Position numbers and translations under genes: made by a program
Part shown: positions 4,190 through 58,400 of the stretch, piece after piece
Position numbering within the stretch: the stretch's first letter is position 1
Layout: the number at the start of each line of letters is the position of its first letter
Origin: Morinoia aosen
Lineage: Eukaryota; Arthropoda; Malacostraca; Amphipoda; Talitridae
Assembly: GCA_030386875.1 (NCBI GenBank)
Contig: CM059571.1
Span: 26,220,355 to 26,284,354, forward strand
Direction: 5' to 3'
Length of the DNA: 64,000 bases
The notes under the pieces: model-generated
What the model was told of the DNA's origin: nothing
Databases searched by the model: none
The model's input: the letters and a program-made list of their open reading frames with translations, nothing else

Positions 4190-5330
4190 TGACGGCGATG
4201 TAGCTTTTTTGTTTGAACAACCGCGTTAAAACTGTTTTTAGTCCCGCCCTCCAGAATCAGTTCAAGAATATGTTTCTGACCCACTAAATAATGTTACTTT
4301 ACGTTTAAAATCCTTCTCAATCGACAGTTTCTGATTGGTTGATCCATTTCATGAATCCTTGTAAAATTTAAATTTTCTTTGAGATTTTCTCCCCACAAGC
4401 AAACTTATTCAGATCGTTCGTTGACGCCTGCCATTTGGTACGTGTAATATTCTGGTTATGGTGACGCACTTATTAGGATGCACTCTTTGTGTCCACATAT
4501 AAAAGTAAACTGAACATTGCCAGCGTTTGTTGATTTAATTGGAACCTCTTTACATGTCGTAGCTTAATTGACTCGAACTAATGAAGCTCTCCGTTGCAAG
4601 AACCGGAGGACTTCATTGAGTTCATAAATGAGAGCTATTTGTTTAAAACAGTACGCTAAATTGCGAATTATCTGAAGAAAGCGTTGTCAATGGTTGAGTT
4701 GATGTACTTGATGCTCAATGAATTTTTTGTGTTTGGAATAATTTCTATGATTCATTTTCCCATAATATGTAGGGTGATATTGGCGTTGGCGGTGGATATT
4801 CAAGGATCTTTTCCCACTGATAATTACATGATGAGTAGAAGTAGCTGTATTCAATGTCAATGTATAAAGAGACGAAAGAGTCAAGTTTCCTTACAATCCA
4901 TAATCGTAGAAGTTTATTTTTGTTAATGGCATTGCCACAGTTCACCCAATGCTCAACAAAATTTGGAATATTGATTCTTGTAGAGCTGCTCACTACTACA
5001 CTCGTAGGTGTACGGGTGAATTAAATCAAAAGTCATCTTAATTAAACAGCTCAAGCTATGGCCCCCAGTTCCAAAAGTTTGCTATGTAATTATTACTTTT
5101 CCGAATGACGTTTGAATGATCATTTCGCGTGATTTTCTTACTGCATGTCGAACATCCCAATGGTATTTTCCTAATAAATTTACTCCAGGAATTTACAAAG
5201 CGTCATAGATGTGCCACGTACATATCGATACCTCGTCTATGTATATTGATACCACATCGTGTGTGACCTCTTCGGATTGAATGAAATTAAACTTTCTTAT
5301 GAGGTTAGCATCTTAAAGATACTAAGAGGT
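4190..5330. other. No feature seen
   Basis: AT-rich sequence. The overlapping short frames at 4684-4993 on both strands have no coding signature. Confidence 0.4.
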
Positions 5331-12700: not shown

Positions 12701-14947
12701 TGTTTATTGGATATATTGGATAATTGAGTAAGCCAGAGAATATCTTGATCTGCTTTCTTTTGTCTTGAATGAAGCCTAAAAATTCCTTTCAAGTTCAAAA
12801 TGCCTATCGGCTCCGGGCTATTTAAAAAAAAAGTAAATCTGTTATGGGCTGCGAGAGAGGTCGGTGACAATTCTTGGAATTGGGTTGTCCTTTTATTGCC
12901 TCAATATTCTCTAAAAATTTTTATATTTTCAAAAAAGGAAGATTATTAAATGGTGCCCTGAAAATTTCAATCCCTGTTTTTCCAAGTACTGGGACAACGA
13001 ATTCTTACTTTTATTTGCAAATACTCCATTACGTACTGTTTCTCGAGTGAATATCGTCACGAACATGAGATCATGAGAAATAGAATTTAAATTTTGTTTT
13101 TAAATTCACTTTGATCCCCGTCATTTACCTTCAAAAATCAAGTGCAACGTATTGTTAAGGCATTTATCACAAGACATGAGAGGGCTTTCATCGCTTCTAT
13201 GGTATATTTTACACCCAATTCAGAAAGCCGTACTCTGTATGGATCTTATACTTTAACTTTTTGAAAACTAAATCTGAATCATTTAATAAATGTGTAAAAT
13301 TAATGTGTATTATTATCAAATAGAGGTTGCTACGACAAATCTTTACAATCGCACATTCTCCGCTCACTTTGCTTGGCATAATTCGCTTTCAATGAAAAGG
13401 GTAAAAAAGACATACCACTGTAGCCAAATGTGCAAAATAGAAATGGTAAAGTGGCATTTGTCTATAACTTCAATGCAAATTTTTCAAGTTTTCAAAAAAG
13501 CATCCAATCAAGATATAGGATCGAATTTCGAAAATTCACACTACACAATTGCACTTGAAGACTCCGATCGGTGATATCACTTACTATTCAACAGTGTGTC
13601 GTTAATGAAGTCGCTACACAAACATATATCAATCTGATTACACAGGAAAAACCCACAGATGGTTGATATTTCTTCGCATGCCTCTGAAAAGGGGTTGTTT
13701 ACCACATAGAATTTAACTTTTCTCCTCCATTCAGCCGTAATAGACAGCAGAACAGTGCAATATTGCTTTGGTTGAAGTTGTGACTTAGGAACTGCAAGTT
13801 ATAAAAAATCGGTTTTAAATTCTTCATTCATCATAAAAAATTGTTCAATTTCCAGTCAAATTATGTCGTAACAAACATAAACATTATTTTTCATTGGTCA
13901 GGTTTCATTTAATTTAAGTTTTTCACTTAGCATCTACGCACGAAAAAAATTAAGAATTCATTTTCTCAGAATAAACTTCAGTTTAAGGTGTACCAAAGCA
14001 CACAGAAGCTATGGGAAACTTTGCACAATTTTGCTGTCGTATATTACTTTGAACGATTACCGTGCACTAGCTTCAAAACGTGCCTCATTTTGAATGCTTA
14101 ATTAGATAATCATAAGATAATATAACTCTCCTCGGAAAAAGTATATGGAAAACAATTGCTAACATTTTTTCAACTGCTAACAAAGCTTTAAAATATGGGT
14201 TTTGAAGGGTTATTCAAGTCATCGCAAGACATTTATGTCTACTCGCAGAAAGGAGACGGAGAGTAGTCGCTAACATTGTTTCTGTTAAACTCGAATTAAT
14301 CAGGCAGAAACTTTACTTATTTCGATCAAAGAGAAACGGGGTTCGAATATTCCCGCGATTAGCGTTTTTATTGAAACTTAGAGGTTGGTTGTGAACGAAA
14401 AGGAACTAATACTGAAAAGTACTTCTATTTTGAGTGAGAAAAAATAGGATAACCTTTTTAATTCATCTGGGAATATATGGAAACTTATCTGGATGTATTT
14501 CTTTGGTCCCGCAATAGTGATCAGGTGATTTATATTTCAAAGGCAGCAGAACGGCACAAACAATGAACGCGTTTTTGCAGTGATCGCATTATAACCTCGT
14601 AAAAGGCTACGACAAATGTAACAGGAAAAGTTTACAAATTTTCATTAATCGGGTGTACAATTTTTGCAGCGTCGTTAGTGATTTTTGTTAGCGTTTGTAT
14701 CATTATTAATCAAATTTCGGGTTTGAGTTCTTCGAGTTTTCAAAATAAATTTTACGAAATGCAAATGGATTGGAATCGAAATCCATTTCTAGAACATGGA
14801 GGGCCACTAGCTAAAAAGTTGCTCAAAAAAGTGTTGTTTGTGCATTAAAATTCTTGCTTGTCTTCAGAAAATATTTTACTATACGTAAATCGACTATTGT
14901 GCAACGCCAGTCAGCCCTAGAACATTTTTGATGGTCCGCGGACCTGG
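9771..14947. other. AT-rich stretch without recognisable genes
   Basis: I saw no terminal repeats, tRNA boxes or coding signature. A moderately GC-rich patch at 11040-11130 contains CACGTG-like motifs but nothing more. The open frames at 10969-11283, 11322-11621 and 13290-13574 have no recognisable domain. Confidence 0.4.
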
Positions 14948-15383
14948 CAGACCTGATCTTCAATGCAGACCTGGTCTTCAATGCAGACCTGGTCTTCAAT
15001 GCAGACCTGGTCTTCAATGCAGACCTGGTCTTCTATGCAGACCTGGTCTTCAATGCAGACCTGGTCTTCAATGCAGACCTGGTCTTCAATGCAGACATGG
15101 TCATCAATGCAGACATGGTCTTCAATGCAGACCTGGTCTTCAATGCAGACCTGGTCTTCAATGCAGACCTGGTCTTCAATGCAGACCTGGCCTTCAATGC
15201 AGACCTGGTCTTCAATGCAGACCTGGTCTTCAATGCAGACATGGTCTTCAATGCAGACCTGGTCTTCAATGCAGAACTGGTCTTCTATGCAGACCTGGTC
15301 TTCAATGCAGACCTGGTCTTCAATGCAGACCTGGTCTTCTATGCAGACCTGGTCTTCAATGCAGACCTGATCTTCTATGCAGC
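14948..15383. repeat. 18-bp minisatellite, about 24 copies
   Basis: The unit is CAGACCTGGTCTTCAATG. It is repeated head to tail with substitutions only (for example CTATG for CAATG, ATGG for CTGG) and no length change. Because 18 is a multiple of three and the unit has few stops, several frames stay open on both strands and encode hexapeptides such as CRPGLQ, MQTWSS and VCIEDQ. These are by-products of the array, not evidence of a protein. The unit contains a near-palindromic AGACC/GGTCT core. Flanks are ordinary AT-rich DNA. Confidence 0.97.
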
Positions 15384-33188: not shown

Positions 33189-33204
33189 CAGGGTTCCAGA
33201 GTCG

Positions 33205-33360
33205 GGAGTCGGAGTCGCATTTTTTAGGGTAGAGACGGAGTCGGAGTCGGAGTCGCTTTACTAAATGTGATTGAATCGGAGTCGGAGTCGCCTTTCCTGA
33301 ATGTGGTGGAGTCGGAGTCGAAGTCGTTCATTCGGATGGGGTGGAGTCGAGGTTGGAGTC
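33205..33360. repeat. GGAGTC hexamer array, copy A left end
   Basis: Imperfect runs of GGAGTCGGAGTCG alternate with spacers such as CTTTCCTGAATGTGGT. The composition and spacers match the array at 36362-36532. Confidence 0.9.
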
Positions 33361-34205
33361 GCTATTTTTTGATATCTTCGATTCTAATTTTTGCTAAAAA
33401 TTATTTATTATTGTTTAAAACCGAAATTAAACAAAACAGAGTTAAAATACTTTAAGGAAAGGCTAAAAAACGCAATGTTTTTGTTGATAGTTTTGAACGA
33501 GGTTCAAAACAGCGTATTTATCCCTATTACCTAATAATGTCTTTAAAATCTAGCCATTGTGGGTTCGCACACATATATAAGTGATACCTACGAGTGTGAA
33601 ATGTAATTTTTCCGGAGCAATAATGTGTATTTTACGGCTAAAAAGCCGGACTTAGTAATCGAAAGCACCAAAAATTCATTCTCTTTACTTCTGTTTCGTT
33701 CATTTCCCCTTCAATTACACATAGGATGTAGAAACTAGTAGTAAATGTATTGCAAGTTACTTGTAGAACAGCTTAGCTGATGTAATACATTGCACTCAGA
33801 TAAAGAGTGGTAACTCTGTACGCTCTAAATGGGTCTATATTCCATACCAGAGGTTCCTTATAACGGTCTTTTCTCGTCTTTCTTTTGGTTATGCTTTGGT
33901 ATATGGATTGATAATGACTATATAGTCTTTGCCGAAACCTAGAGGTATGTTGTGATCATATATATTTCTAGTCTTTAGGTTGTGATATATTGATAACGAC
34001 TAGTCTTCGCCAAAACCTGGAGCTCTGGTCTGTCTGATACATAAAGACTTCTAGTTTTCAGATTAAATTATCACTGTTGATAATGAATATTTAACTAGCT
34101 TATTCCGATGTTTATAACTGGAATATTAGTTGATTTTTTCCGCAATATGTAGCACCTATGTACTTCAATTTAATCTCATTGTTTTTGTTTACTTCCTTGT
34201 CTTTA

Positions 34206-35391
34206 AGGACACCGTCTGGGTAGAAATCGGGATAAGTGTTGATTTTCTGTTTTTATATGCATCTTATAGAGGATTTTCTTGCGCTTCCATTAGTACTTTC
34301 CGTCTACGTCTACTCCGAATAGTGCGCCCACCAGAGGGGGGGAAAGCAATGGGGGTGGCGTGACCTTGACCCCTCCCCCCCTCATTATTGGGGGTCAATT
34401 GAGCGTGTTTCTATGCGGTAATGGCAATAGAGTTCGTTCATGGGCTACTCAAAGTGCTTTCATTATTCAAACGAAACACTCTAACGCTGAGTAAATATTT
34501 TTTTATAAGATTTTGACAATTTCAGAATTTAGCTGTTCTGCCGTATCTATGATACCGCAGCTTTCATTCATAGCTCGATGACAGCTGCAGTATCATAGCT
34601 ACAGCTATGGCGAGCACACCAATCCAAAGGGCTTGAAAAGAGCTACAAAACAGAGGAGTTGACTTGAAAAAAACGTATTTTGGTCGAAAAAAATGAAAAA
34701 ATAAAAAAAGTGGTTATTTTGAAGAATTACATGTATTGTCTTTTGTTGTATATTTTTTCCCAGAGTTACAGAGCTACAGCAATGTAAATTATATCAATCG
34801 AAAGGGCTTGAGAAGAGCTACAAACGCTCAAGAGTTCATTTTTGAAAATCTTTTAGTTCAAAAGATAAAAAGAAAAACAATTTTTTTTTGTGAAAAAACA
34901 CGTTTTCCTGGAAACTTGATAATTGGTTTCTCAAATGTATCTTCTTCCACAATTTTAGAGCTACAAGAGTGGTTTATTTACCATTCGATAGGGCTTAGCA
35001 AGGTGTATCCATAAGGGGATACATTTTTCGATACATCTATTATTTTGGAAATTACACGACATGAAAAAAAATGAAAAAACCTCACATTTTTTGAAAAAAA
35101 TATTCTCAAAATCCACAAAAAAAAGTTATCGAAATTCCCTAGCCCTTATGGTTATATAGACATATAAGCAATCTAAAAACGAAATTATGGTTCTGTAACT
35201 TCAAAATTGTAGAAGAAGATAGATTTTAAAAAACCCTATTTTATCATATTTTTCGAAAAAAAAATCTAGTGCATATACAAAAATTTTGTCGAAATAACAA
35301 ATGATCTTTGCACCATTTCACACCTACTGTGAAAATTTCAGAGAAATCCATCCATAAATAATGGACTTTTCTCCAACCCAGACGGTGTCCC
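34206..35391. mobile_element. TA-flanked element with short TIRs, inside copy A
   Basis: The left end is AGGACACCGTCTGGGT and the right end reversed is GGGACACCGTCTGGGT, with TA outside both (34204-34205 and 35392-35393). The aligned position in copy B (near 37187) lacks the insert, which confirms the boundaries. The interior contains about three diverged repeats of roughly 190 bp, each with a GAGCTACA...AAGGGCTT segment followed by A-rich stretches. No transposase is seen. Confidence 0.85.
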
Positions 35392-36346
35392 TAAGTTAAG
35401 TTATGGTGTATTAATGATGAAAATTTTGACTCATTTCTGAAGTTATTCCTTTAATGATGTTTTTTTTTCTTTAAGAGTTTTGTGGTTGACTATTTCATTT
35501 TCATGTTTAATTTTTATCTTCTAATCACTCCCCAGTTTCAAAGTAAGCATACGCTGCAATGGAGATTTGTATAATTATGTTTTTACAATTTTAAAAACTG
35601 AAATAGTATCTGTTTTTCGACATTATATAGTTAATTACTTTTTCTTAAGAAAGTTTTGGAATTGTTGTAAGGTAATCAATATCGGTATTGGGACACATGA
35701 AAAAAATAAAATACAATGTAAACGAGCTGCAGGGAAAATAATAACACAACACTAGCAAAAACTTCACTCACACACATGTTGTAACTGAAAGCAATGCACT
35801 ATTTCTGCTGCAATGATTGTTGCATCATGCGATAGTACAAATTTTCTTAGTTGAAACGTTCTAAATTGCACTAAAAATATAAAATGAAAAGGACATGAAC
35901 GTTTATTAAAATAAGAAAGTGTCAAATACAAAGTAAAAAGTCAGACGAAAATAAAAGACAGTATCGTATTACACACAAAGAAGCTAAAAGTGGCTTTTAT
36001 TCCTAAACATAACGTTTCGAAAACGTCATGCCCCTGCGACGAAAGCGGAACAACTGTTGCCCTTTGTAGCCGACATGTAACATAATGTTGAGCAATAATA
36101 TGCCACCTTTTCTGCATTGTTACTCTGCGTAGTGTAGATGCAGAGAAGAGGAGGCAGTGTGCGCATCTTGCCTACCTTATCTACATGTACAATGGTACAT
36201 CATAATTTTGGGGATTTTGAGCATAGAAATTGAATCAATTATTGCAATTTCGTTGAATTGGTGGATACTTAGTAAAAGAAAAAACGGTTGATGCTTATCT
36301 ATGCTTCTCAGGCTAAGCATTGCCGACTTGGCCTACTCAGAAAACA

Positions 36347-36354
36347 CTTGTCAG
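36347..36354. repeat. 8-bp target-site duplication, left
   Basis: CTTGTCAG lies directly before the CAGGGTTGCGG terminus of copy B and is repeated exactly at 42229-42236. Confidence 0.9.
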
Positions 36355-36361
36355 CAGGGTT

Positions 36362-36532
36362 GCGGAGTCGGAGTCGGGAGTCGGAGTCGCCGGAGTCGCA
36401 TGTTTTAGGGTGGAGTCGGAGTCGGAGTCGCTTCTCTGAAGTGTGGTGGAGTCAGAGTCGGAGTCGCTTTCCCGAATGTGGTGGAGTCGGAGTCGTTCAT
36501 TCAGATTTGGTGGAGTCGAGGTTGGAGTCGCT
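36362..36532. repeat. GGAGTC hexamer array, copy B left end
   Basis: Runs of GGAGTC with interruptions such as GCTTTCCCGAATGTGGT. It begins within the terminal inverted repeat itself, so the terminus seems to have seeded the array. Confidence 0.92.
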
Positions 36533-38161
36533 ATTTTTTTTTGGCTCTTCAATTCTAATTTTTGCTAAAAATTATTTGTATTTGTTTAAAACCGAAAGTA
36601 AACAAAACAGAGTTATACTACTTTGCAGAAAATCTAAAATATACGCAATGTTTTAGTTGATTGTTTTGTTTTAAATTTGAAACAGCGTATTTATACCTAT
36701 CACCGAATACCGTCATGTTATCTAGTCATTGAGGGTTTGCATACCTATATATATGATACATACGAGAAATAAATATAATTGTACCGAAGTAATAATGCAC
36801 ATTTTGCAGTTAGAAAGCAAGAATTGATAATTGAAAGCGTTCAAATTCATTCTGTGTATTTCTGTTTCGTTCATTTCCCATTCAGTTAATACATAGGAAG
36901 TGGAAAATAGTGGTAAATGTGTTGCAAGTTACTTGCAGAACAGCTCAGCTGATGCAATATATTGTACTCACATAAGGAGTGTAACTCTGTACGCTCATAA
37001 TGATGTATTGACTGGTAATGAATAGTCTTTGCAGAAACTTAAAGTTATGTTGTGATCATAAATATTTCTAGTCTTTAGGTTATGATTCATTGCCAATGAG
37101 TGGTCTTTGCCAGAACCTGGAGCTATGGTCTGGTACATAAAGACTTCTAGTTTTCAGGTTCTGTTATCAAATTGATATGGCTTCCTTGTCTTTATGTCAA
37201 GTTAACATGTATTAATAATAAAAATTTCTGATCATTTCTAAAGTTATTCCTTAAATGTGTTTGGTTCTTTCAGAGTTATATTGTATTTCACTATATCATT
37301 ATCATGTTTAATTTTTATCTTCGTTTAACTCCCCAGTTTCTAAGTAAGCATATGCTGAAATGGAGAATTTTATAATTATGTTTATACAATTTTAAAAACT
37401 GAAATAGTATCTGTTTCGTAGCATAATGCAATTAATTACTTCATCTTAAGGAAGATTTGGAAATGTTGTAAGCTAATAAATATCGGCATTGAGACACTTG
37501 AAAAAAATTGATATGCAATGTAAACGAGCTGCAATGAAAATAATAACACACAAATGCAAAAACTTCACTTATAGTCACACACATATAGTAACTGAAAGCA
37601 ATGCACTATCTCAGCTACAATGCTTGTTGCATTTATGCGATAGTACAAATTCTCTTGCTGGAAACGTTTCAAATTGCTCCAAAAAACATGAAATGAGAAG
37701 AGCATGGGCGTTTATTAAAATAAGAAAGTGTCAAATACGAAGTAAAAAGTTAGACGAAAATAAGAGATGGTATCATATTACACTCAAAGAAGCTAAAAGT
37801 AACTTTTATTCGTAAACAAAACGTTCCGAAAACGTCAGGCCCCTGCGACGAAAGCAGAGCAACCTTTGCCTATTATAGCCAAAATGTAACATAGTGTTGA
37901 GAAATAATATGACACCTTTTCTGCATTGTTACCCCGCATAGTGTAGATACAGAGAAGAAAAGGTAGTGTGCCAATCTGGCCTACTTTATTTACATGTCAA
38001 TCATAATTTTGGAGATTTGATGCATCGTCATTGAATTAACTACTATAACTTCACTGAATTAGTTCATACTTAGTAATAAAAAAAATGGTGAGACATATCC
38101 ATGCTTCTCGGTGTAGGCAATGCCTACTTTACCTACTCAGAAAACACCCGTCAGTAATATA

Positions 38162-38780
38162 CAGGGTGTTTCAGAATAAGAGGCAAAAAATTGCACACCA
38201 AGTAGAAGATATCCAAATAAAAACTTTTTCTTCTATGAAATTTTCGGAAGAAAGAGACATTGAGATAATAGCCGTTTGTTGTTTTAGAGGATGAAATTCA
38301 ATGACAAAATTACTCGCAATATTTATTTTGAATTTACGTTGATCGGGCGAAATGTTCTAGTTGCATGACCTCCTAGATCTCCTGACATGACTCCACTCGT
38401 TTTCATATTTTGGGGACACGTGAAGAGCCTTGTTTATGCTACACCCATTGAGTCTGAGGAAGATCTTGTGGTCAGAATAGCTGTGGCTGCAGGTGAGATA
38501 CCTTAATGCTAGACGAGTTTCCTAATATCCGGCAGCCGTTAAGGCTAACATTCGAAAAGTGCATTGATGTAGGTGGAACACATTTTGAACAATTTTTTTA
38601 AATTAAATTCCAAATAAATATTGCGAGTAATTGTGCCATTAAATTTCATCCTTTAAAACAATAAACAGCTAATACCTCACAACCACGATTTTTGGGGAAA
38701 ATTTCATAGATCAAAAAGTGTTCATTTAGTCATTTTCTACTTGATGTGCAATTTTGTACCTCGTGTTCTGAAACACTCAG
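38162..38780 (+). mobile_element. Long-TIR Tc1/mariner-like element (family 2), inside copy B
   Basis: TA flanks both sides (38160-38161, 38781-38782). The left end CAGGGTGTTTCAGAATAAGAGG is mirrored by the right end (CTGAGTGTTTCAGAACACGAGG reversed), and similarity extends about 180 bp inward. Copy A at 42236-42260 shows the approximate empty site. Between the arms lies a short transposase remnant. Confidence 0.88.
38339..38505 (+). pseudogene. DUF4817-type transposase remnant
   Basis: The frame reads IGRNVLVA, a stop where tryptophan is expected, then PPRSPDMTPLVFIFWGHVKS and YATPIESEEDL. The SPD aspartate and the WGHVKS motif are typical of this mariner-like group. The first two catalytic residues are missing. 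Confidence 0.8.
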
Positions 38781-40021
38781 TATATATAATTGTGTACACG
38801 ACCCGTCATAAATGACGGGATTCAATATTGTCTTTCTACAAATCTTCCAGATGTGGATCATAAAGAAATATATCCATTCTAATAGTACCCGCGATTAAAA
38901 TATTCTAGTGCTTGTGCTCTGGTGAAACTCGCATCACAGATACAGTCATTAAGCATCTTTATGAGCGTGAAAGGGAGACAGGCCAGCCAACAAAGACGGA
39001 CAGCCAATTTTATTTCTTCAATGAAATTTCCTGTTGAAAATCTTCCGTATTTCTGATGGCGGCTTTGTGGAAGAAATAGTTTTCTTCAGTTGGCCTCTCT
39101 TAGTTCACAGACAAGAATTTGAAACAGTTGAAATTAGTACTTTCTCAGCTTCGTTTTTTTTTGCAGCTGCATCTTTTCTTTTCGTTTTTTGTGTTTAAAT
39201 TTAAATTTCTATAATTTAGCATGTTTGAGCTTCTAGCAGACTTGCATTAACCTTAAATCGCTGTAATTAACATTAATCGTGACGTTTTGGCGTTCATTCA
39301 TTAAATTATCTTTGAGCTTGCTCTGCTTGGGCAGCATGTCGCCCTTTTAATAAAAGTGGGTCTGGTACCTCAAACTTATTTCTCTTGCGTAAAAAGCAGC
39401 CTCTATCTGCGACTTGAACTCTTCAACCCGGCTCATGCAGCCTCTTGAATAGGTATTTATTATTCAAGTTAATTAATTGTCAATTAATTGTTAAAATCTT
39501 AGTGCTATATGCAACCTTGCAAGAAGATACGATATTCAGCTAGTCGGCGACCAGACATCTTAAAACTCTGTATCTCTCTACTCAGAACGCCTTTAAAATT
39601 TCCTACCAGAGTACCATGCTGATGACCGGCCGCGTCCATTGGTTGTCTTCTATTTTTAGGGAGTTTCATTTTTAAAAACTAACCTTGCGTTAAAGAAGAT
39701 CTTCGGTCTCCGTTTAAAGGAATTTAATACTAAAACTACTACAGAGGATGCTCTTGTGCGTACTGTTGGAATCCTCAAGATACGCCTAACTTGGGTGATG
39801 TTTCTCTTTTTGCGAATCTCGGGAAACGACTTCCTGTTGTCCCTTTGAAGTTCTTCTGTATTTGAAATAATTGTTTGAACAGTTCCCCTTAAGTTTTCAA
39901 TCCTAAAATTCCATTGTAATAACATAGGAGAGATTACGCTCACAAAATACCTAAAACTATTTATTTATTTGTTTAAAGGAGACACTTGTCCTTTCATTGT
40001 TTAAGAACAATCAACACGATA

Positions 40022-40799
40022 CCGGGTGTCCCACAAAAATGTCCCCGACTTTTTAATTGATTATATCGCCGCTTTACATTAACATATTGTAATTGTCTTT
40101 TATTAGCAATGTTGTAAATTTTTTTCCTTTTCGAATAATTTAAATTTTTGAAAATCAGTTGAATCAGCACTTCACAATGATCGATTTACTGAAAGGGGTA
40201 AAAAACTAATTGTTCAAGGGGAAAATTTTAAAAACAACACTGGTGTTCTTCTTCTTTTCTTAATACCCACTGTAAAGAATCATTTCATAATGAAGTATCC
40301 TACATACCATCAAGTTTTTAAGCCCTCTGAGAGGTTTCAAGTTTCAAGTGTTTTCAATAACAGTGTTTCAAGAACTGAGAGAAAATGGTGAAATAATCTG
40401 CAAAACTCTTCGTTCAATGGTGGCCAGAAGTAATACTTGCCATGAGAGAAACGGAGGGTTTGTCGAAGGATACTAAATTGCTTTATTTGTTTAAATGTTA
40501 TTTACGGTCATGATTTGTTACTCTTTTAAATTTTTGTTTGTTCGGCTTTATGGAAAGTACAAAATAAGGAAGAACATCAGTATTGTTTTATAAACATTTC
40601 CTTTGAACAGTTAATTTTTCTGTCCCTTTCAGTAAATATGTCATTGTAAAGTGGTTATTCAACAGATTTTCAAAACCTTAAATTATTCGAAAAGGAAACA
40701 AAATTTACTTCATTGTGAAAAAAGACAATTTAAATATGTTCATTTAAAGCGGAGATATAATTAATTGAAAAATCTGGTGCATTTTTGTGGGACACCCGG
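40022..40799 (+). mobile_element. Long-TIR Tc1/mariner-like element (family 1), inside copy B
   Basis: TA duplication (40020-40021, 40800-40801) surrounds ends CCGGGTGTCCCACAAAAATG and the inverted CCGGGTGTCCCACAAAAATG, which match perfectly over 20 bp. Arms extend about 250 bp. Sequence and layout match 2548-3322. The better arm identity here indicates a younger insertion. Confidence 0.9.
40366..40476 (+). pseudogene. C-terminal transposase remnant (family 1)
   Basis: The frame FQELRENGEIICKTLRSMV then ARSNTCHERNGGFVEGY and a stop equals the remnant at 2867-3003. Only the end of the protein survives, and the arms provide the sole mobility signals. Confidence 0.75.
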
Positions 40800-41614
40800 T
40801 ATAATAAAAAGGCAGGTGTCCGTCAATTTATAAATAAGTATATGTTCTCGTGCGTAATTTCCCCTATGTTATTACAATGGGAATCTGCTTGCTTGGATAG
40901 TATCATGAATAAGATTGAAATATGAAAAATCTGGCATCTGCTCACTTTTATTTATAAGTAAAAAACATTGCGTGAAAATCGAATCTACGGTCAAGAAAAT
41001 TAGACTTATCGCAGTGAAAAGGTATTGCAATTTTTTTAAAAACTTCTTGGCGAACAATAATTTAAATTATAATGCACAGTTGTTGCTTGCTTCGTTGTTG
41101 TGTGCGTCTGTGACGTTTTAAAGATGCTTAATGACCGTAACTGTGATACGAGTTTTACCAGTGCACAAGTACGAGAATACTGTATTTTAATCACGCGTAC
41201 TATTAGGATGGATATATTTGTTTGTCATCTTTATCTTGAGATTTTTTAAAACGATAGCATTGAATTCCGTCATTTTTGACCAATCATGTACACTGGTAAC
41301 TTGATTATCAATATTCTGTAGTCAATTTAAAAGTCGTTCGTTAATAAAGAATATGATGAACATATGCACAGGTTTCAACTCCTGCAACCGTTCACTACTA
41401 AGAATGACCGTCCTGTGTTTATTGATATGTTTCGTGTCACGCTCTGAAGAATCGATAGAAAGAAATTAGCACTGGCGGTCTTGGTTTCACTTCACGATCA
41501 ATTAACACACACATTTTCGCTGTACAAGTGCTCTATAATGTCACTTACAAAACATTAGAGAGATCCAGAGCCGTATATACTCGAGTTCGTATCGTGAATA
41601 CCGAGTTCGGCGGG

Positions 41615-41720
41615 GTGTTGTATATTACAATGTACTGTATTGCATATTACAATATGCTGTATTATATATTAAAATATACTGTATTACTCTATACTGTATT
41701 GCATTTTACAATATACATAC
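41615..41720. repeat. TACTGTAT/ATATTACAAT short tandem repeat
   Basis: Four imperfect units of about 22-27 bp contain TGTACTGTATT and CATATTACAATAT. The period drifts. Confidence 0.6.
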
Positions 41721-41994
41721 ACAAGCTCGCAGTTGCTTTCAGTAATGCTGAATTTCTGTATCTAGGATACTACTCGAATGGCTATAACTACTTCTCTTGC
41801 TGCCCGAAAATACTATGTTCTGAGTGTTTATTACTCTAAGACAAAAATTAAGTTACCTTTGGAATAAGCTTTAGCATGGAAACTCCACAAGCACGAAAAT
41901 TTGTTGAAGAAAGGTATTGAATCCCGTCATTTTTGACGGTCCGTGTACACTAGTTAAGAAATAAAATATTTATCTCATAAATTATGAATAGGTG

Positions 41995-42204
41995 GAGTTG
42001 GAGTCACAAAATTTTGAATAGGCGGAGTCGGTGTCGGAGTCGCCAAATTCTGGAAAAGTGGAGTCGGAGTCGGAGTTGGAGTCACTGAATTCTGAAAAGG
42101 TGGAGTCGGAGTCGGAGTCGGAGTCGCCAAAATCTGGAAAGGTGGAGTCGGAGTCGGAGTCGCCAAATTCTGGAAAGGTGGAGTCGGAGTCGGAGTCGCA
42201 AATT
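41995..42204. repeat. GGAGTC hexamer array, copy B right end
   Basis: Five blocks of about 36-42 bp, each a GTGGAGTCGGAGTCGGAGTC run followed by GCCAAATTCTGGAAAG or a variant. This is a higher-order version of the left-end array and lies 24 bp inside the right terminus. Confidence 0.92.
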
Positions 42205-42228
42205 TATTTCTCCGATTCCGCAACCCTG

Positions 42229-42236
42229 CTTGTCAG
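42229..42236. repeat. 8-bp target-site duplication, right
   Basis: CTTGTCAG follows the CCGCAACCCTG terminus of copy B. The sequence after it, TAATATATACTG, continues copy A. Confidence 0.9.
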
Positions 42237-42270
42237 TAATATATACTGTATATAATAGTGTACACGACCA
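42229..42270. mobile_element. Copy A resumes after copy B
   Basis: GTCAGTAATATATACTGTATATAATAGTGTACACGACC aligns with copy B at 38152-38806 if the nested element 38162-38780 is removed. Copy A is then interrupted again until 44135. Confidence 0.75.
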
Positions 42271-42374
42271 CTGCTAGGGGGTCCCAAGAAACCGAAGTGA
42301 ATCGGACACACTCCAGCACTTGTTGCCCTTGTTTCCAGTCGTGACAAATTAATTACTGGTCGCGCATTTTATTC

Positions 42375-43035
42375 TTAGTTCACTGAGAGCAGCTGAGAGG
42401 AGGAAGTTGGATGTGTTTGAGATGAAGTGTTTGAGGAGCATTTATGGAGTAACTAGAAGAGATAGGATCAGGAATGAGTTGGTTAGGGGGCAGACGGGTG
42501 TTATCAAAAAGTTGAGCAGGCGAGTGGATGAAAGAGTGCTTGGATGATTTGGGCATGTTGAAAGAATGAATGTTGAGCGGCTGGTGAAAAAGATATATAT
42601 GTCGGAAGTGAGTGGTCTTCGAGCGCGAGGTAGACCACGGATGAGTTGGATGGATGGGGTGCGACGTGCTTTGTATGAGAGGGGTCTGACTGTGGACGTG
42701 GCGAGAGGGATGGCTGCGGACAGAAGTGAGTGGGGGCAGTGTATGAGGAGGTAATTTTATTTTTGACGCGTTACTGGAAGCTGCCCGCGTGTGATGGGGT
42801 TGACCTGTCATGTGCGGGGGGAGGGGCTGCACTCAATGAAGCGGTCGGGGTAAACCAGCTGTGGCTGTCGGGCCTGACTGTGGAAGGTGGTTGTGCTGGG
42901 CTGCTGCTGATCCTGGCAGTTCAGGTGCGGCCAGTGCTGCCTCTCTCGCCTCCTAGTGACTAAGTGTGGTGATTGTGGCCTGCTGTCGGCTACCCTCCCA
43001 TAGGGAGGATAAGCCCGGTATATGTATGTATGTAT
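42375..43035 (+). mobile_element. 5'-truncated LINE with TATG tail
   Basis: A 661-bp insertion is flanked by an exact 11-bp duplication GCATTTTATTC (42364-42374 and 43036-43046). It holds the C-terminus of a LINE open frame, a short 3' untranslated region with CTCCCATAGGGAGGATAAGCCC forming a small stem-loop, and a TATG microsatellite tail (43019-43036). All fit target-primed insertion with 5' truncation. Confidence 0.9.
42380..42754 (+). pseudogene. LINE reverse transcriptase ORF, C-terminus
   Basis: The frame reads AERRKLDVFEMKCLRSIYGV, then a TGA stop in place of tryptophan before FGHVERMNVERLVKK, then ARGRPRMSWMDGVRRAL and ends DRSEWGQCMRR. The FGHVERM and RGRPR..W.DGV motifs are the common C-terminal signature of several LINE clades. 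The clade is not determined. Confidence 0.85.
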
Positions 43036-43046
43036 GCATTTTATTC

Positions 43047-43306
43047 AGTTTTCTACTGGGCGTCAGGTTGTGCAGCGGTCACTGGCATAGCGTGCAGCGG
43101 TCAATGTTGTAAGGGCATTAGGTGAGCTCTATTTTACAACAACAAATATTTTTCTTGTTTCTTGAACTTATTTCTTAGCTTACTATTTCTATGCACCTTT
43201 TGCAATGTGCATAGATTCCGCATTCCCTCAACTCCATACTAAATGGTGCCTTGATCCTTCCTCTCTTTAACATCTTTTTCGCAGTAAAGGGAGGTTAAAA
43301 TTTTAT

Positions 43307-43310
<4 letters not shown>
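43047..43310. other. Unassigned insert sequence within copy A
   Basis: Part of the roughly 1.87 kb (42270-44135) present in copy A but absent at the matching point of copy B. Apart from the LINE and the repeats listed, nothing is recognised. Confidence 0.4.

Positions 43311-43356
<46 letters not shown>
43311..43356. repeat. (TAA)n microsatellite
   Basis: About 15 perfect TAA units. Confidence 0.97.
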
Positions 43357-43357
<1 letters not shown>

Positions 43358-43496
43358 CTTCCATAGGATAAACTGAGCTCGCGTATCGTAGATACTTGCG
43401 AATCAGACTTCTGTCACGATTTAGAAATTTTCGTTAGCTTGTCTGTTGCTTTTTCACCGGACTTATTGCGGAAATTTAGCTTTCACTCGTCTTATG

Positions 43497-43672
43497 GTGC
43501 CTTATGGAGTGAATGGAGGTGTGAGTGGTGCCTTATGGAGGTGTGAGTGGTGCCACTCACCTTTCCACAGCACGGCACCCCTCACCTCTCCACAGCAAGG
43601 CACCACTCACCCCTCTACAGCAAGGCGCAGTGCACCACTCACCCCAAATACCTCTCACCTCTCTACAGCAAA
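43497..43672. repeat. 25-bp tandem repeat with inverted leader
   Basis: Units such as CACCACTCACCTTTCCACAG occur about four times with spacers around GCAAGG. They are preceded by two GGAGGTGTGAGTGGTGCC units that are their inverted complement, so the block can fold into a hairpin. Confidence 0.75.
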
Positions 43673-44134
43673 AACACTTTGTTTTCTGCAGGAAATCAGA
43701 AGTCGAGGCATTAGTTACATTACTGATAAAAATTTAGTTGTCTTGAGACGTAATTGTTGATGAGGTAAAATATCTTGCCTTACGATGATTATATTATCAA
43801 TATATTGAAAAGGGAAATTTGATGGAGTTTATATTTATTTCCTTGCAATGGTATTTTATAATAGTTTCAATAAATGTCAAATTTCTGCAGCCATTAGTTG
43901 TCGGTCTATATGCAATAGAAGAAAAAGCCAGAATTTTATAATTTGATGGAAATTCAGGTCGAATCTCACAAGAGCTATAAAAAAACGTTCGTTTTGCGCG
44001 ACCATTAAATATTGCCCAAAGTTAATGAAAATTTGGTGGAATGATTTTCATTTGACAAGGAACCAGAGCAGCGTGTGCTGGATTTGCTATCAGAACTTTG
44101 AATTTTTACCTATATACGCTTTGGACGCCCTAAG
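43673..44134. other. No feature seen
   Basis: AT-rich remainder of the insert in copy A. Confidence 0.4.
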
Positions 44135-44455
44135 ATTCGATATTGTCTTGTACAAAGCTTCCAGAAGTGGATCATAAAGAAGTCTGTTCATCCTAAGAGC
44201 CCACGAGATTAAAATATTCTTATACATGTGCACTGGTGAAACTCGTAACACAGATACGATCATTAAGCATAATTTAAGAGCGTGAAAGGGAGACAGACCA
44301 GCCTACCAAGACGGACCAATTTTATTTGCTTATTACTCAATTAAACATTGTAATCACATAGAAGTTATGTACAGGAAATACCCTGATTTATTTATTTACC
44401 TTTTTGTTTAAGGAGACACTTGGCATTTTATTTTATAAGAATAATCAACACTACA
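44135..44455. mobile_element. hAT-like GGAGTC element, copy A, third part
   Basis: ATTCGATATTGTC through GAGCGTGAAAGGGAGACAGA aligns with 38818-38993 of copy B. AAGGAGACACTTG through ATAATCAACAC aligns with 39976-40017. Copy A lacks the roughly 870 bp found at 39020-39905 in copy B. The alignment stops where another sequence (TAGGGTGTTTATTTGTGCGG) begins. Confidence 0.7.
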
Positions 44456-44456
44456 T

Positions 44457-44915
44457 AGGGTGTTTATTTGTGCGGACAAATTTCAACTATAGGTACTAAA
44501 ACTCAAAATATATCGAATTTCGCGAATGATAAAATGCTAAAATCTCCTTAGTTTTCGAGTTATAAGGACTTAGAGAAACTTCAAAACTCAAAGTGGGATA
44601 CCACGTGCGCGCAAATGTTAGCGCTAGTTTTGTTAGTTCCTACCTAACCACAGCAGATTTTTGTTATTTTTAGAATAAAACCTGCAAGCATTTTACAGTT
44701 GCAAAAAATTTTGCAATTTAAATGTTCGTTAGGAAATTAACACTAAGCCATCAATGATAAACTTCAGTAGTTATTTTATTAAATCAATAAAACGTAGAAA
44801 CATTATTAAATGCTTCATAGCTTGAAACTGCAGATATTTTCCCTAACCGAAAATACTTGAAATTTTTATAATAAAATGTCAAAAATCTGCTTTAGTGCAG
44901 TCAGAACTATCACTA
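44457..44915. other. Possible terminal part of another transposon
   Basis: It starts AGGGTGTTTATTTGTGCGG at nearly the same position where copy B carries its family-1 element, and it has the 'GGGTGT' look of Tc1/mariner-like ends. No matching inverted end or coding was found. Confidence 0.35.
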
Positions 44916-44916
44916 C

Positions 44917-45690
44917 CCCTTTTTCACCTCAAATTAATCCAGTCAAGTTCAATTTAATCCAAGTCAAGTTCAATTTAATCCAAGTCAAGTTCAATTTAAT
45001 GCAAGTCAAGTTCAAATTAATCCAAGTTAAATTGAAATTAATCCAACCCTAAGTTGAATTAAAAATTGACATAATCACGCGTTAATTTGAGCGAGCGTTT
45101 TTTGAGTTAAATATGCATCTATTGGATGTGATGAGCGAGACAATCGATTTTCCTTTCAGCGAGGAATACATAAAATTTCTGCCGGTGTTGCACTCTAAAG
45201 AGACAAGCTGTCGTAAAATGTGCTAAGTATCCACCATCAGGAGGCAGAGTGTGATTCAAATCTATGAATGACGTAAAAGATACAAGTCAATTATACAAAT
45301 TTCGTTTCATGTACTACTCATTGAAATTATTTTAAAATTCTACATTAATGGTAGTTTGCAGCCATTCAAATATTTATATCCGAAAGGTAATTTTACGTTA
45401 CACATAGAAGAAGTGAGAATTTATTTACTCTCAAATGTAGATTTATACGCGTGAAATTTCACTTTATCACACATATGAAGTCACATATACATGCAGCTAC
45501 ATAAGAATACCATTAGACGATATTCAAATTTAATATATAAAAGAAAAATAGCAACGAAGTTCTTCCTTCGCTCGTCAAAACAATTTTCGTAAGAACAAGT
45601 TACAATTTATTTCATCGACATAGATGATATATATGTCTTGGCCTATCCATTTGAAGGGATGGCAACACTTTTATTGCTAATGCAGGAATG
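44917..45690. mobile_element. Foldback-like element, solo arm
   Basis: The outer edge CCTTTTTCACCTCAAATTAATCC is followed by several CAAGTTCAATTTAATCCAAGT units. Sequence shared with 56938-57490 and with the inverse of 57660-58400 follows: the AAGCTGTCGTAAAATGTGCTAAG, CATTCAAATATTTAT and GATGATATATATGTCTTGGCC landmarks. It ends near GGATGGCAACACTT. The opposite arm is missing. Confidence 0.75.
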
Positions 45691-46865
45691 TATCTGTGTG
45701 ACTAAATAAATCCCGAATTATTGCTCGAGCCACGGTAAACAAATGTCTTCAGTGAGTGGTACATCTGCGGTGGAATGAATCCGAAACAAACCGAACCGAA
45801 AAAACATGCAGTCTGAACGTTAGATCTCCGTAACCTCATGTTTATGCCACAAATGATAGTGTCCTGATTGCTAGGAAAATTTTTCCCATACTTGCAAAAA
45901 TAGCTTATAACTTTACTACGATCAAAACTGTTTTAGATTTTGTAAAAGTCGTAACATTTATCTAATATTGAATATTTTATCAACGTAAAATTACTTCCTA
46001 TATTCTGGTGGTACATAATAGTGGATTTGCATGAGCAGATTCAGGGAGAAACTGGCATTATAAAATGCTGGATAAAGGAGTTTCAAGTTGCTGGATACAT
46101 TCACATATGCACAGTACGTATATATCTTCTATAACATCATGCTCAACTCACTGAAGCTCTTTCATAACACTGCGTGCTACCATTTTCCATGCATGACTAA
46201 CCATAAATTTCAGGCTAAGCCCTTAAGCTCCCGCATAAAGAACATTTGTTAAACTAATACTTGCTATTGAAGAGCATTAAAGACTCCTTTGGTTCTGTTC
46301 ACGTAACTGTCATAAATCTATAACACCATAGCTCATATGATCTAACCTACATTAGCGCCAACGTAAATTCGACTAGAGCTGAAGGAAAATTAGAATCGAG
46401 TTGTGGAAGTGCTACACTGCATTGTTTGCAGTGTAGCAAACAATGTACGTGCATACACTGACTGCAGTTAATTTGATCAAAGCATAAAGACAAGGCCACG
46501 AAATTGAAGAGACGTTCACATGGTACAGAAGTGCGTGTTGGGTCAACGGAAGGAACGAGTTATCATCATGCCAGAATTATCCGCACGCAAGAAAGGCGTT
46601 TCTTTCCCCAGGTATGGCCTCCTTCGGGCAATGCTAATTGCTACCATTAATTTTGCTTCAATCTGAGACGCAAGACCTTTAAACGTCTTATTGGCAGTCA
46701 TTGCTTTGCCACGTATTCTGATCAGGAAAAATTGAGGCCTATTTTCCGTCAAATTCTCCCAAGTGATGGACATTTTTTGTTCTATGATTGAACACGTAAT
46801 TGATACAGACTAACGAACATCAAAACGTCATTGTCCTTTACCCTCACAGCATTCCTGTCGAAGCT
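45691..46865. other. No feature seen
   Basis: AT-rich sequence. A small inverted repeat ACTGCATTGTTTGCAGTGTAGCAAACAATG occurs near 46416-46445. No gene was seen. Confidence 0.4.
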
Positions 46866-56937: not shown

Positions 56938-58400
56938 TACACCTTTTTCACTTCAAATTTATCCAACACAAGTTCAACTTCATCCAAGTCAAGTTCAATT
57001 TCATCCAAGTCAAGTTCAATTTCATCCAATTCAAGTTCAATTTCATCCAATTCAAGTTCAATTTCCTCCAAGTCAAGTTCAATTTCATCCAAGTCAAGTT
57101 AAATTTAATCCACGTCAAGTTCAACTTGATCAAAGTCCAGTTCAAATTAATTCAAGTAAAATTCATATCGAGATAACCCTAAATTGGGTGATTATTGACA
57201 TAATCACTCGTCAATTTGAGCGTTTTTGTGTTAAATCTGTATCTATTGGGTGTAATGAGCAAGATAATCGTTTCCGCCGGTGTTGCAATGTAAGCATAAG
57301 CTGTCGTAAAATGTGCTAAGCATCCAGCATCAGGAGGCTGAGTGTGATTCAGATCTTTGAGCGGCGTAAAAGATACAAGTCAATTTCAAAAACTTTGTAT
57401 TATACTACTCATTAAAGTTTTTTTTTAAATTATACATTAATGGTAGTATGCATCCATTCAAATATTTATGTTCAAAAGGTTACACTCAATATGTTACACA
57501 TAGTAGTATCAAGGTTTTATTCATAAGATTACTATTGGACCACACATGAATTTAATCTTTGAAAGCATTATACAAATGCGATTCAGTGAGTACTTATGGA
57601 CGATTCGGTTTGATTACAATTTATATAAGTTCATTACTAAGATACATTCATGCTAAGATAAATTCATTACTAAGATAAAATAAGAATGTTGCCATCCCTT
57701 CAAAATAATCGGTCAAGGCAAATATATCATCTATGTCGATGAAACAAATTGGAACTTGTTTTTTCGAAAATCATTTGAACAAGCGAAAATAGGACTTCGT
57801 TACGATATTTCTTTTGTAGATTAAATCTAAATATCGTCCAATGGGAATCTTGTGTAGTTGCATGCATATACAGCTTCATATATGTGATAACGTAGAATTT
57901 CACGCATGCAAATCTCTATTTGAGTGTGAATAAATCCTCGATACTACTATGTGTAACATAAACTTACCTTTTGAACATAAATATTTGAATGGATGCATAT
58001 TACCATTAATGTAGAATTTTAAACAACTTTATTGAGTAGTATAATGCGAAGTTTTTGTAATTAACGTTTTAATTATTTTTAATTTATAATTTTATAATTA
58101 ACCTTTTACTCCTCTCGAAGATCTGAATCACACTCTTCATCCTGATGCTTGATGTTTCGCACATTTTACGACAGCTTGTGTTTAATTAAATTGCAACACC
58201 GGCGGAAATTTTACATATTCCTTCTAGAAAGGAAAAACGATTGTCTCGCTAATCACATCCATAGTTACATATTTAACACAAAAAACGGTCAAATTAATGG
58301 GATTATATCATTAATCACTGAAATTTGGGTTGGATTATTTGAATTTGACTTGGATTAAATTAAACTTGACTTGGTTTAATTTGAAGTGAAAAAGTGTGGT
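56938..58400. mobile_element. Foldback-like element, two arms
   Basis: The outer edges CACCTTTTTCACTTCAAATT (left) and its inverse AATTTGAAGTGAAAAAGTGTG (right, near 58378-58398) bound two long inverted arms. The inner arms share CATCCATTCAAATATTTATGTTC and GAATGGATGCAT-type segments. The left arm is shorter because the part matching 57660-57900 is absent. Subterminal 21-bp repeats are expanded on the left only. The structure resembles Foldback/Galileo-type elements, but no transposase is present and the target duplication is not resolved. Confidence 0.75.
56965..57155. repeat. 21-bp tandem repeat, about 9 copies
   Basis: Unit CAAGTTCAATTTCATCCAAGT, with variants ending AATT or ACGT. It translates as repeated VQFHPSQ, which is incidental. 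The same unit, fewer copies, lies at 44940-45050 and near 58330-58380 inverted. Confidence 0.93.

Follow-up and report, generated by a model that had tools for sequence, protein, structure and literature searches.

How does an element that carries no recognisable transposase spread through a genome, and what part might long hexamer arrays at its ends play in its movement? Both questions are raised by a locus on contig C16 of the 1.99-Gb, 29-contig genome of the amphipod Morinoia aosen, where the 64,000-nucleotide stretch analysed here (the window) contains a 5,874-bp element with matching tips, flanked by a perfect 8-bp duplication. We refer to this copy as W, and to all copies that share its ends as the GGAGTC family. 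We find that W is a complete member of a large non-autonomous hAT-type family. Its parts, in window coordinates, are the following.

36347..36354, plus strand: left target-site duplication CTTGTCAG, read from the sequence and present as a single copy in homologous interiors (L026, L013)
36355..42228, plus strand: complete non-autonomous hAT-type element, 5,874 bp, delimited by its ends, duplications, family and empty site
36355..36371, plus strand: left terminal inverted repeat CAGGGTTGCGGAGTCGG, which contains the first GGAGTC (end search)
36364..36529, plus strand: left compound array of GGAGTC blocks and spacers of about 17-18 bp, with 14 exact GGAGTC and 0 GACTCC in the first 300 bp
36530..41990, no strand assigned: interior, with no transposase recognised by frames, Pfam or tblastn; longest stop-to-stop frame 126 aa
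38157..38785, no strand assigned: palindromic insertion, arms 38157-38336 and 38604-38785 (self-comparison)
40019..40802, no strand assigned: second palindromic stretch, arms 40019-40258 and 40561-40802 (self-comparison)
41994..42197, plus strand: right compound array, its GGAGTC oriented as in the left array, with 16 exact GGAGTC in the last 300 bp
42212..42228, minus strand: right terminal inverted repeat, one mismatch to the left (end search)
42229..42236, plus strand: right target-site duplication CTTGTCAG, read from the sequence

W runs from CAGGGTTGCGGA to TCCGCAACCCTG, and copies of CTTGTCAG abut it directly on both sides; at the right terminus, position 42228, the sequence reads ...CCGATTCCGCAACCCTG and continues into the second CTTGTCAG. 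The inverted ends agree at 16 of 17 bp, the single mismatch being GGAATCGG for GGAGTCGG at the right end. When up to 3 mismatches are allowed, the 17-bp end occurs three times in the window, where 0.03 would be expected; these are the two tips of W and one tip of an older copy. An earlier note, made from the sequence of this stretch, had proposed a complete hAT-like element with matching termini, a perfect 8-bp duplication and arrays that start inside the left terminus. All of this held up: CTTGTCAG stands on both sides of ends that match at 16/17, duplications favour T and A at positions 2 and 7, respectively, the tips begin CAGGG, an empty site exists, the same boundaries occur elsewhere, and the first GGAGTC falls within the 17-bp left end. 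The right array, which the same note placed 24 bp from the terminus, in fact stops at about 42197 with its final GGAGTC, leaving 19 bp to the 12-bp terminal match and 14 bp to the 17-bp match. hAT elements have short inverted ends beginning CAG or TAG. The tips of W (CAGGGTTGCGGAGTCGG) follow this rule, as do the ends of four other elements of the same genome (L060, L062, L064 and L065), and W and its family also have the 8-bp duplication, the target preference nTnnnnAn and the multiple short subterminal motifs expected of hAT elements.

Searching the genome for these ends and for 8-bp duplications, a check that the earlier note had suggested, returned the same boundaries many times over. The exact 17-bp end is present 3,772 times (1,871 forward and 1,901 reverse), and its reversed control 0 times. 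A longer left form of the end gave 788 + 749 matches and a longer right form 741 + 760, so that exact left ends and exact right ends each number at least 1,500 in the genome. Pair spacing was measured on the first 100 places listed, all on contig C1. Here, 42 of 43 adjacent plus/minus pairs were less than 20 kb apart, and gaps in the opposite order were that short in 4 of 42 cases. Pair lengths fell mostly into two classes, 5.7-6.1 kb (18/43) and 6.85-7.05 kb (12/43). Miniature inverted-repeat transposable elements are usually under about 1 kb; the family is larger, with 30/43 of these pairs in the two classes and the shortest at 4.8 kb.

We fetched 20 further copies as end pairs and, with W, read 21 copies. 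Perfect 8-bp duplications at the predicted base flank 16 of the 20 fetched copies, or 17/21 with W. Two of the copies, L011 and L023, are a single insertion that was duplicated along with its flanks (flanks 99.7% identical), and the independent duplications therefore number 15/19, or 16/20 with W. The duplications prefer GTTnnAAC, in keeping with the hAT pattern nTnnnnAn, which is also the published target preference of Hermes (PMC10368747): in the 17 duplications pooled both ways (16 of them independent), T occupies position 2 in 24/34 and A occupies position 7 in 24/34. Pairwise identity among copies is 87-99% with gap columns excluded; L011 and L023 stand apart, at 66-72% to the others. Since the closest independent pairs are 98-99% identical, some movement was recent. 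Five copies of about 7 kb (L010, L019, L020, L022 and L028) share, at a common site, an additional segment about 1 kb long, flanked in L028 by a 15-bp duplication, CAGTATCATAAATAC. This shared insert indicates that a source without a recognisable transposase itself multiplied.

The flanks of W belong to another member of the same family.

33189..36354, plus strand: left part of an older copy of the GGAGTC family, host of W, with tip CAGGGTTCCAGAGTCGG; about 80-86% identical in the matching pieces
42237..45700, plus strand: probable continuation of the older copy, broken by other sequence; 44134-45700 resembles the L011 subfamily at 77-81%

The left tip and arrays of the older copy lie at 33189, and the flank at 35386-36354 is 82% identical to the interior of W at 37187-38154; an end search of the window did not find the older copy's right tip. 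Since W is lodged in an earlier member of its own family, the empty site can be read from homologous interiors. When the two flanks are joined with one CTTGTCAG, they match the interiors of 21/21 copies as a single BLAST piece across the junction. CTTGTCAG is present once in L026 and L013, and in L026 the site is the uninterrupted AACACTTGTCAGTAATATA. About 150 bp from the right duplication of W, the window also contains, at 42384-43039, a stretch that is 97% identical to part of the 1-kb segment of the 7-kb copies (L028 element 4572-5227); it is probably an independent retroposon-like repeat.

We next consider coding capacity. The earlier note recognised no transposase in W, and we recognised none in any of the 21 copies by frames, Pfam or tblastn, including the copies of about 7 kb; the same note had suggested looking for one in longer members. 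Among the four longest frames of at least 110 aa per copy, the longest has 286 aa and lies in the insert of L010 and L022. No Pfam family scored above its cut-off in 15 frames from nine copies, W included (2 frames of L009, 2 of L011, 2 of W and 9 of the 16 frames of at least 160 aa). We take the palindromic insertion at 38157..38785 to be mariner-like from its appearance; the homologous L009 frame is without a Pfam match. When 32 frames of at least 150 aa from other loci (L029-L064) were compared with the 21 copies by tblastn, five alignments resulted, none of them from a transposase frame. All five come from one L046 frame and fall in L011, L023 and L024; that frame scores as a reverse transcriptase (RVT_1, E 1.7e-5, below the curated cut-off), and we rejected these fragments as hAT transposase. 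The two frames of L065 gave no tblastn alignment to the 21 copies. A BED finger, an RNase-H fold and a hATC domain, the parts of a hAT transposase, were thus not found in the copies read, and we therefore file the family as non-autonomous, a class in which a transposase is not expected.

The arrays are the most distinctive part of the family. The window has 13 places that match a GGAGTC 18-mer with up to 2 mismatches, where 0.00 are expected; 9 of them are in W and 4 belong to the older copy. W has 14 GGAGTC in its left 300 bp and 16 in its right 300 bp, with 0 forward and 1 reverse in the interior; in 200 shuffles of W, no tested 300-bp stretch had more than 2. The earlier note had described GGAGTC arrays built into the ends. 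They are indeed present at both ends, not as simple arrays but as compound units, each consisting of one to five hexamers, (GGAGTC)1-5, and a spacer of about 17-18 bp. In all 21 copies the left and right clusters share one strand, and the terminal 300 bp hold 14-23 hexamers on the left and 7-23 on the right. No copy (0/21) has the reverse complement GACTCC in its left 300 bp, and neither the right 300 bp nor the interior has more than one. Forward GGAGTC is missing from the interior of 18 copies, occurs once in L016 and L024, and occurs 14 times in L017, which contains a nested left end; with the same exception, runs of two or more consecutive GGAGTC are restricted to the ends (20/21 copies). 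One GGAGTC also lies within each 17-bp inverted end, mutated in the right end of W. Since one hexamer belongs to each inverted tip, the left array faces inward as its tip does and the right array opposes its tip.

Array sequence varies less than the rest of the element. Across 13 of the 21 copies, the recent ones, alignment cells off the majority number 2/1,624 (left) and 17/1,656 (right) in hexamers, 18/1,300 and 24/1,628 in spacers, and 168/7,147 and 165/6,739 in the interior. The larger count, which covers 19 of the 21 copies and leaves out L011 and L017, gives 10/2,190 and 47/2,242 for hexamers, 49/1,799 and 106/2,270 for spacers, and 608/10,435 and 698/9,720 for the interior. Such low hexamer variability fits constraint, and it also fits homogenisation within the array. 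Left and right spacers were compared by eye, and we make no claim that they are homologous. A value of zero for the left hexamers (0/1,104 in 8 copies) was set aside because those copies had been chosen for equal block patterns.

Block number is more stable than the earlier note's term "expandable" implies: blocks hold one to five hexamers, rarely more than four, and an identical left block series, including 4-4-4-4, is shared by 8/21 copies. Runs of at least five hexamers gave 643 + 1,090 overlapping matches genome-wide, and the 100 places listed for them include five on C1 and a few long arrays elsewhere. At C6:80881063-80881230 there are at least 28 uninterrupted GGAGTC units, far longer than any run in the copies read. 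Long runs do exist in the genome, and expansion therefore happens, though it is untypical of the copies read.

Hexamer-array ends had been called unusual, yet a hAT element with transposase domains in the same genome is near-identical in plan. This element (L065/L066) is 4,646 bp long, with the duplication CTTTGATT and tips TAGTGATGTACCGAT; a genome search returned 653 + 609 matches to its right tip. Like the GGAGTC family, it has an 8-bp duplication, a hexamer within each inverted tip (CCGATA on the right, CCGATG on the left) and one-strand arrays at both ends, here of TATCGG, with 7 copies within the first 150 bp, 10 within the last 150 bp and none in the interior. It differs in its tips, TAGTGATGTA, in the hexamer itself, in two reverse-sense copies (CCGATA) at the left end, with none in the interior, in its shorter spacers, and in carrying BED and hAT domains in two frames. 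One frame of L065 matches the BED zinc finger (E 5.3e-13), with a weak DUF659 match below cut-off, and another matches the hAT RNase-H domain (E 1.6e-6) and hATC (E 2.5e-26). Clusters of CCGATA/TATCGG occur in at least 8 of the 30 best hATC loci (L029-L032, L034, L036, L050 and L058). A second hAT, CAGGGTTGCC (L063, L064), shares the first nine tip bases of the GGAGTC family, CAGGGTTGC, and has an 8-bp duplication (in L064 only) and a motif repeated near both L064 tips, but that motif is a different one, is not arranged in tandem blocks, and accompanies a transposase frame. L064 is 2,575 bp long with the duplication CTTGGCAG and one hAT-like transposase frame; GTTAC/GTAAC occurs 6 times in its left 200 bp, 3 times in its right 200 bp and 3 times in the 2,175-bp middle. 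Each of L060, L062 and L064 has one hAT-like frame of 607-687 aa and a perfect 8-bp duplication (AGATGGTC, GCGTGGAA and CTTGGCAG, respectively). CAGGG tips are found in L060 and L062, and Pfam confirms hATC in L062 and in L063, a relative of L064.

The partner of the GGAGTC family is not among these elements. We considered L065/L066 and L063/L064 for this role and rejected them, and L060, L062 and L064 have other tips. The 30 loci L029-L058 contain no CAGGGTTG[CG] tip and no double GGAGTC or its reverse complement; L034 has one GAACCCTG, within the stretch of its hATC match. For L059 and L061 no partner tips or ends were obtained. Relatives of L063 at 52-80% identity exist in the genome. Judged by eye, no hAT place listed on C1, or on C2 up to about 71.5 Mb, lies within 15 kb of a listed right end (a place at C2:77.4 Mb falls outside this range). 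Dense clusters of matches to the hAT C-terminal domain, many of which include an open frame of about 112 or 127 aa, occupy C21:4-6 Mb and 62-83 Mb and are possibly tandemly amplified.

Subterminal motifs are published for other hAT elements, and we compared the family with these. Ac of maize has 11-bp ends and copies of an AAACGG hexamer within 200 bp of each tip, which the transposase binds cooperatively (PMC3260210). Ac/Ds resembles the GGAGTC family in its 8-bp duplication, its subterminal hexamers and its non-autonomous Ds elements with filler interiors; it differs in sequence, its repeats are described there without mention of tandem blocks, and the GGAGTC family has no partner found (PMC3260210). 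Hermes of the house fly shares imperfect 17-bp inverted ends, 8-bp duplications of the form nTnnnnAn, many motifs near the tips and a sense that differs between left and right; those motifs closest to the tips point opposite ways at the two ends (PMC10368747). Its motif is the 4-bp AAG(T/C), 17 on the left and 14 on the right, whereas GGAGTC is a 6-bp word set in tandem blocks that lie about 18 bp apart, and Hermes has its own transposase; in the solved complexes described, BED domains contact left-end motifs only, and the authors regard end asymmetry as an important requirement for activity (PMC10368747). The Herves transposase of Anopheles gambiae binds a short subterminal motif, CG/AATTCAT, at both ends (PMC3143072). 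Herves also has tandem repeats at the left end, three imperfect copies of 100 bp, but its motif is another one, tandem repeats are described for one end, and it too has its own transposase (PMC3143072). The coral CMITEs (PMC2872659) and the systems in a review (PMC9659126), as far as the available text goes, are not close parallels. The tip string CAGGGTTGCGGAGTC had no match in the papers searched; Repbase-type catalogues lay outside that search, and the family may be catalogued there. Each of two GGAGTC array strings returned a single paper, unrelated by title, and of the TATCGG-family strings two each appeared in a single unrelated paper and two had no match.

Taken with these precedents, the data make it probable that the GGAGTC family is a non-autonomous hAT family whose tips are recognised by a hAT transposase from elsewhere and whose arrays are clustered putative BED sites. 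Such a transposase would recognise the tips, excise the element and reinsert it with an 8-bp staggered cut at GTTnnAAC-like sites. The arrays would present clustered sites to the BED zinc finger at the transposase N-terminus, one in each 17-bp end and about 7-23 in each 300-bp end, and we infer that GGAGTC is, most simply, the word read by the helper's BED finger. That the arrays form a transposase-binding platform, as the earlier note supposed, is likely in kind, because Ac, Hermes and Herves have binding motifs near their tips and the TATCGG hAT has a similar plan. With both arrays on the same strand, a reading inward from each tip meets the hexamer in opposite senses; this may render the ends unequal and could favour left-right pairing. 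A bolder form of this idea, which we put forward tentatively and think less likely than not, is that the hexamer arrays are a polarity code: two hAT families of the genome, unlike in tips and hexamers, have most or all of their motifs on one strand, and these would be read in opposite senses at the two tips, with assembly only on a left-right pair, and the array would be an amplified, tunable form of the end asymmetry that Hermes needs. What is new is the arrangement, tandem compound one-strand blocks at either end, which a second hAT family of the genome resembles in layout; it is a variant of a known design.

Several observations weigh against these proposals. No transposase-bearing element with GGAGTC ends was found among the candidates scored (150 of 2,753 hATC candidates in one search and 62 of 6,124 candidates in another). 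In recent copies the right hexamers and spacers barely differ in variability (17/1,656 against 24/1,628), and slippage or gene conversion in tandem arrays could equally make hexamers uniform. A symmetrical Hermes element was not rescued when motif asymmetry was restored in its first 50 bp, according to that study (PMC10368747), a caution against the polarity idea. A perfect duplication is missing from four of the 20 fetched copies: L028 seems to be slightly shifted, L017 holds a second, nested left end, and L010 and L024 have no clear match. The tips look more conserved than they are, because copies were chosen by exact 17-bp ends. Finally, the empty-site match overruns the junction by only 5-7 bp in 18 copies, with 13-21 bp in L021, L023 and L011. 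In W a palindromic stretch starts right after the empty-site point, and this would account for the short match on the right; we infer the same for the other copies.

Three other explanations were weighed. We think it unlikely that the same non-autonomous hAT carries its arrays passively, as a slippage-grown minisatellite hitch-hiking beside a short recognition site. Block lengths of one to five hexamers do differ between copies, an array of at least 28 units exists at C6:80881063, and slippage or conversion can keep tandem arrays uniform. A passive minisatellite fits poorly, however, with the confinement of runs of two or more GGAGTC to the ends in 20/21 copies (L017, with its nested left end, excepted), with a second hAT family of near-identical plan built on another hexamer, with a left block series identical in 8/21 copies, and with spacers that are also less variable than the interior on both sides. 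A different superfamily is very improbable. The P and Merlin superfamilies also make 8-bp duplications, the family's own transposase is unseen, and the assignment draws on tips and target sites; but the tips begin CAGGG, the target preference is nTnnnnAn-like, and elements of the same genome with hAT frames have tips CAGGGTTGC (L064) or CAGGG (L060, L062) together with 8-bp duplications, hATC being recognised by Pfam in L062 and L063. That the CTTGTCAG pair and matching tips reflect coincidence or an assembly artefact, for which we found no supporting point, we discount almost entirely and reject as a chance match, given 16/20 other copies with perfect duplications at the same tips, the intact single-copy site in homologous interiors, and 3,772 occurrences of the 17-mer against 0 in the reversed control.

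The family bears on an open mechanistic question: why an eight-membered ring of transposase and about 200 bp per end are needed in Hermes, and why its left and right ends have to be unlike. Dozens of identical motif copies in the same orientation, at least 1,500 exact ends on each side and natural variation in block number, along with the relative of similar design that has transposase domains, would make the effects of motif number and direction directly testable. The family also illustrates that a mosaic of about 6 kb without a recognisable transposase can spread widely.

The window contains two further repeats. An 18-bp tandem repeat, GCAGACCTGGTCTTCAAT, occupies positions 14947-15382 with 24 copies at 95% match. 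Arrays of a 21-bp unit (TCCAAGTCAAG...) lie in both orientations at 44929-45062, 56952-57165 and 58330-58379, and the same unit is found inside L011.

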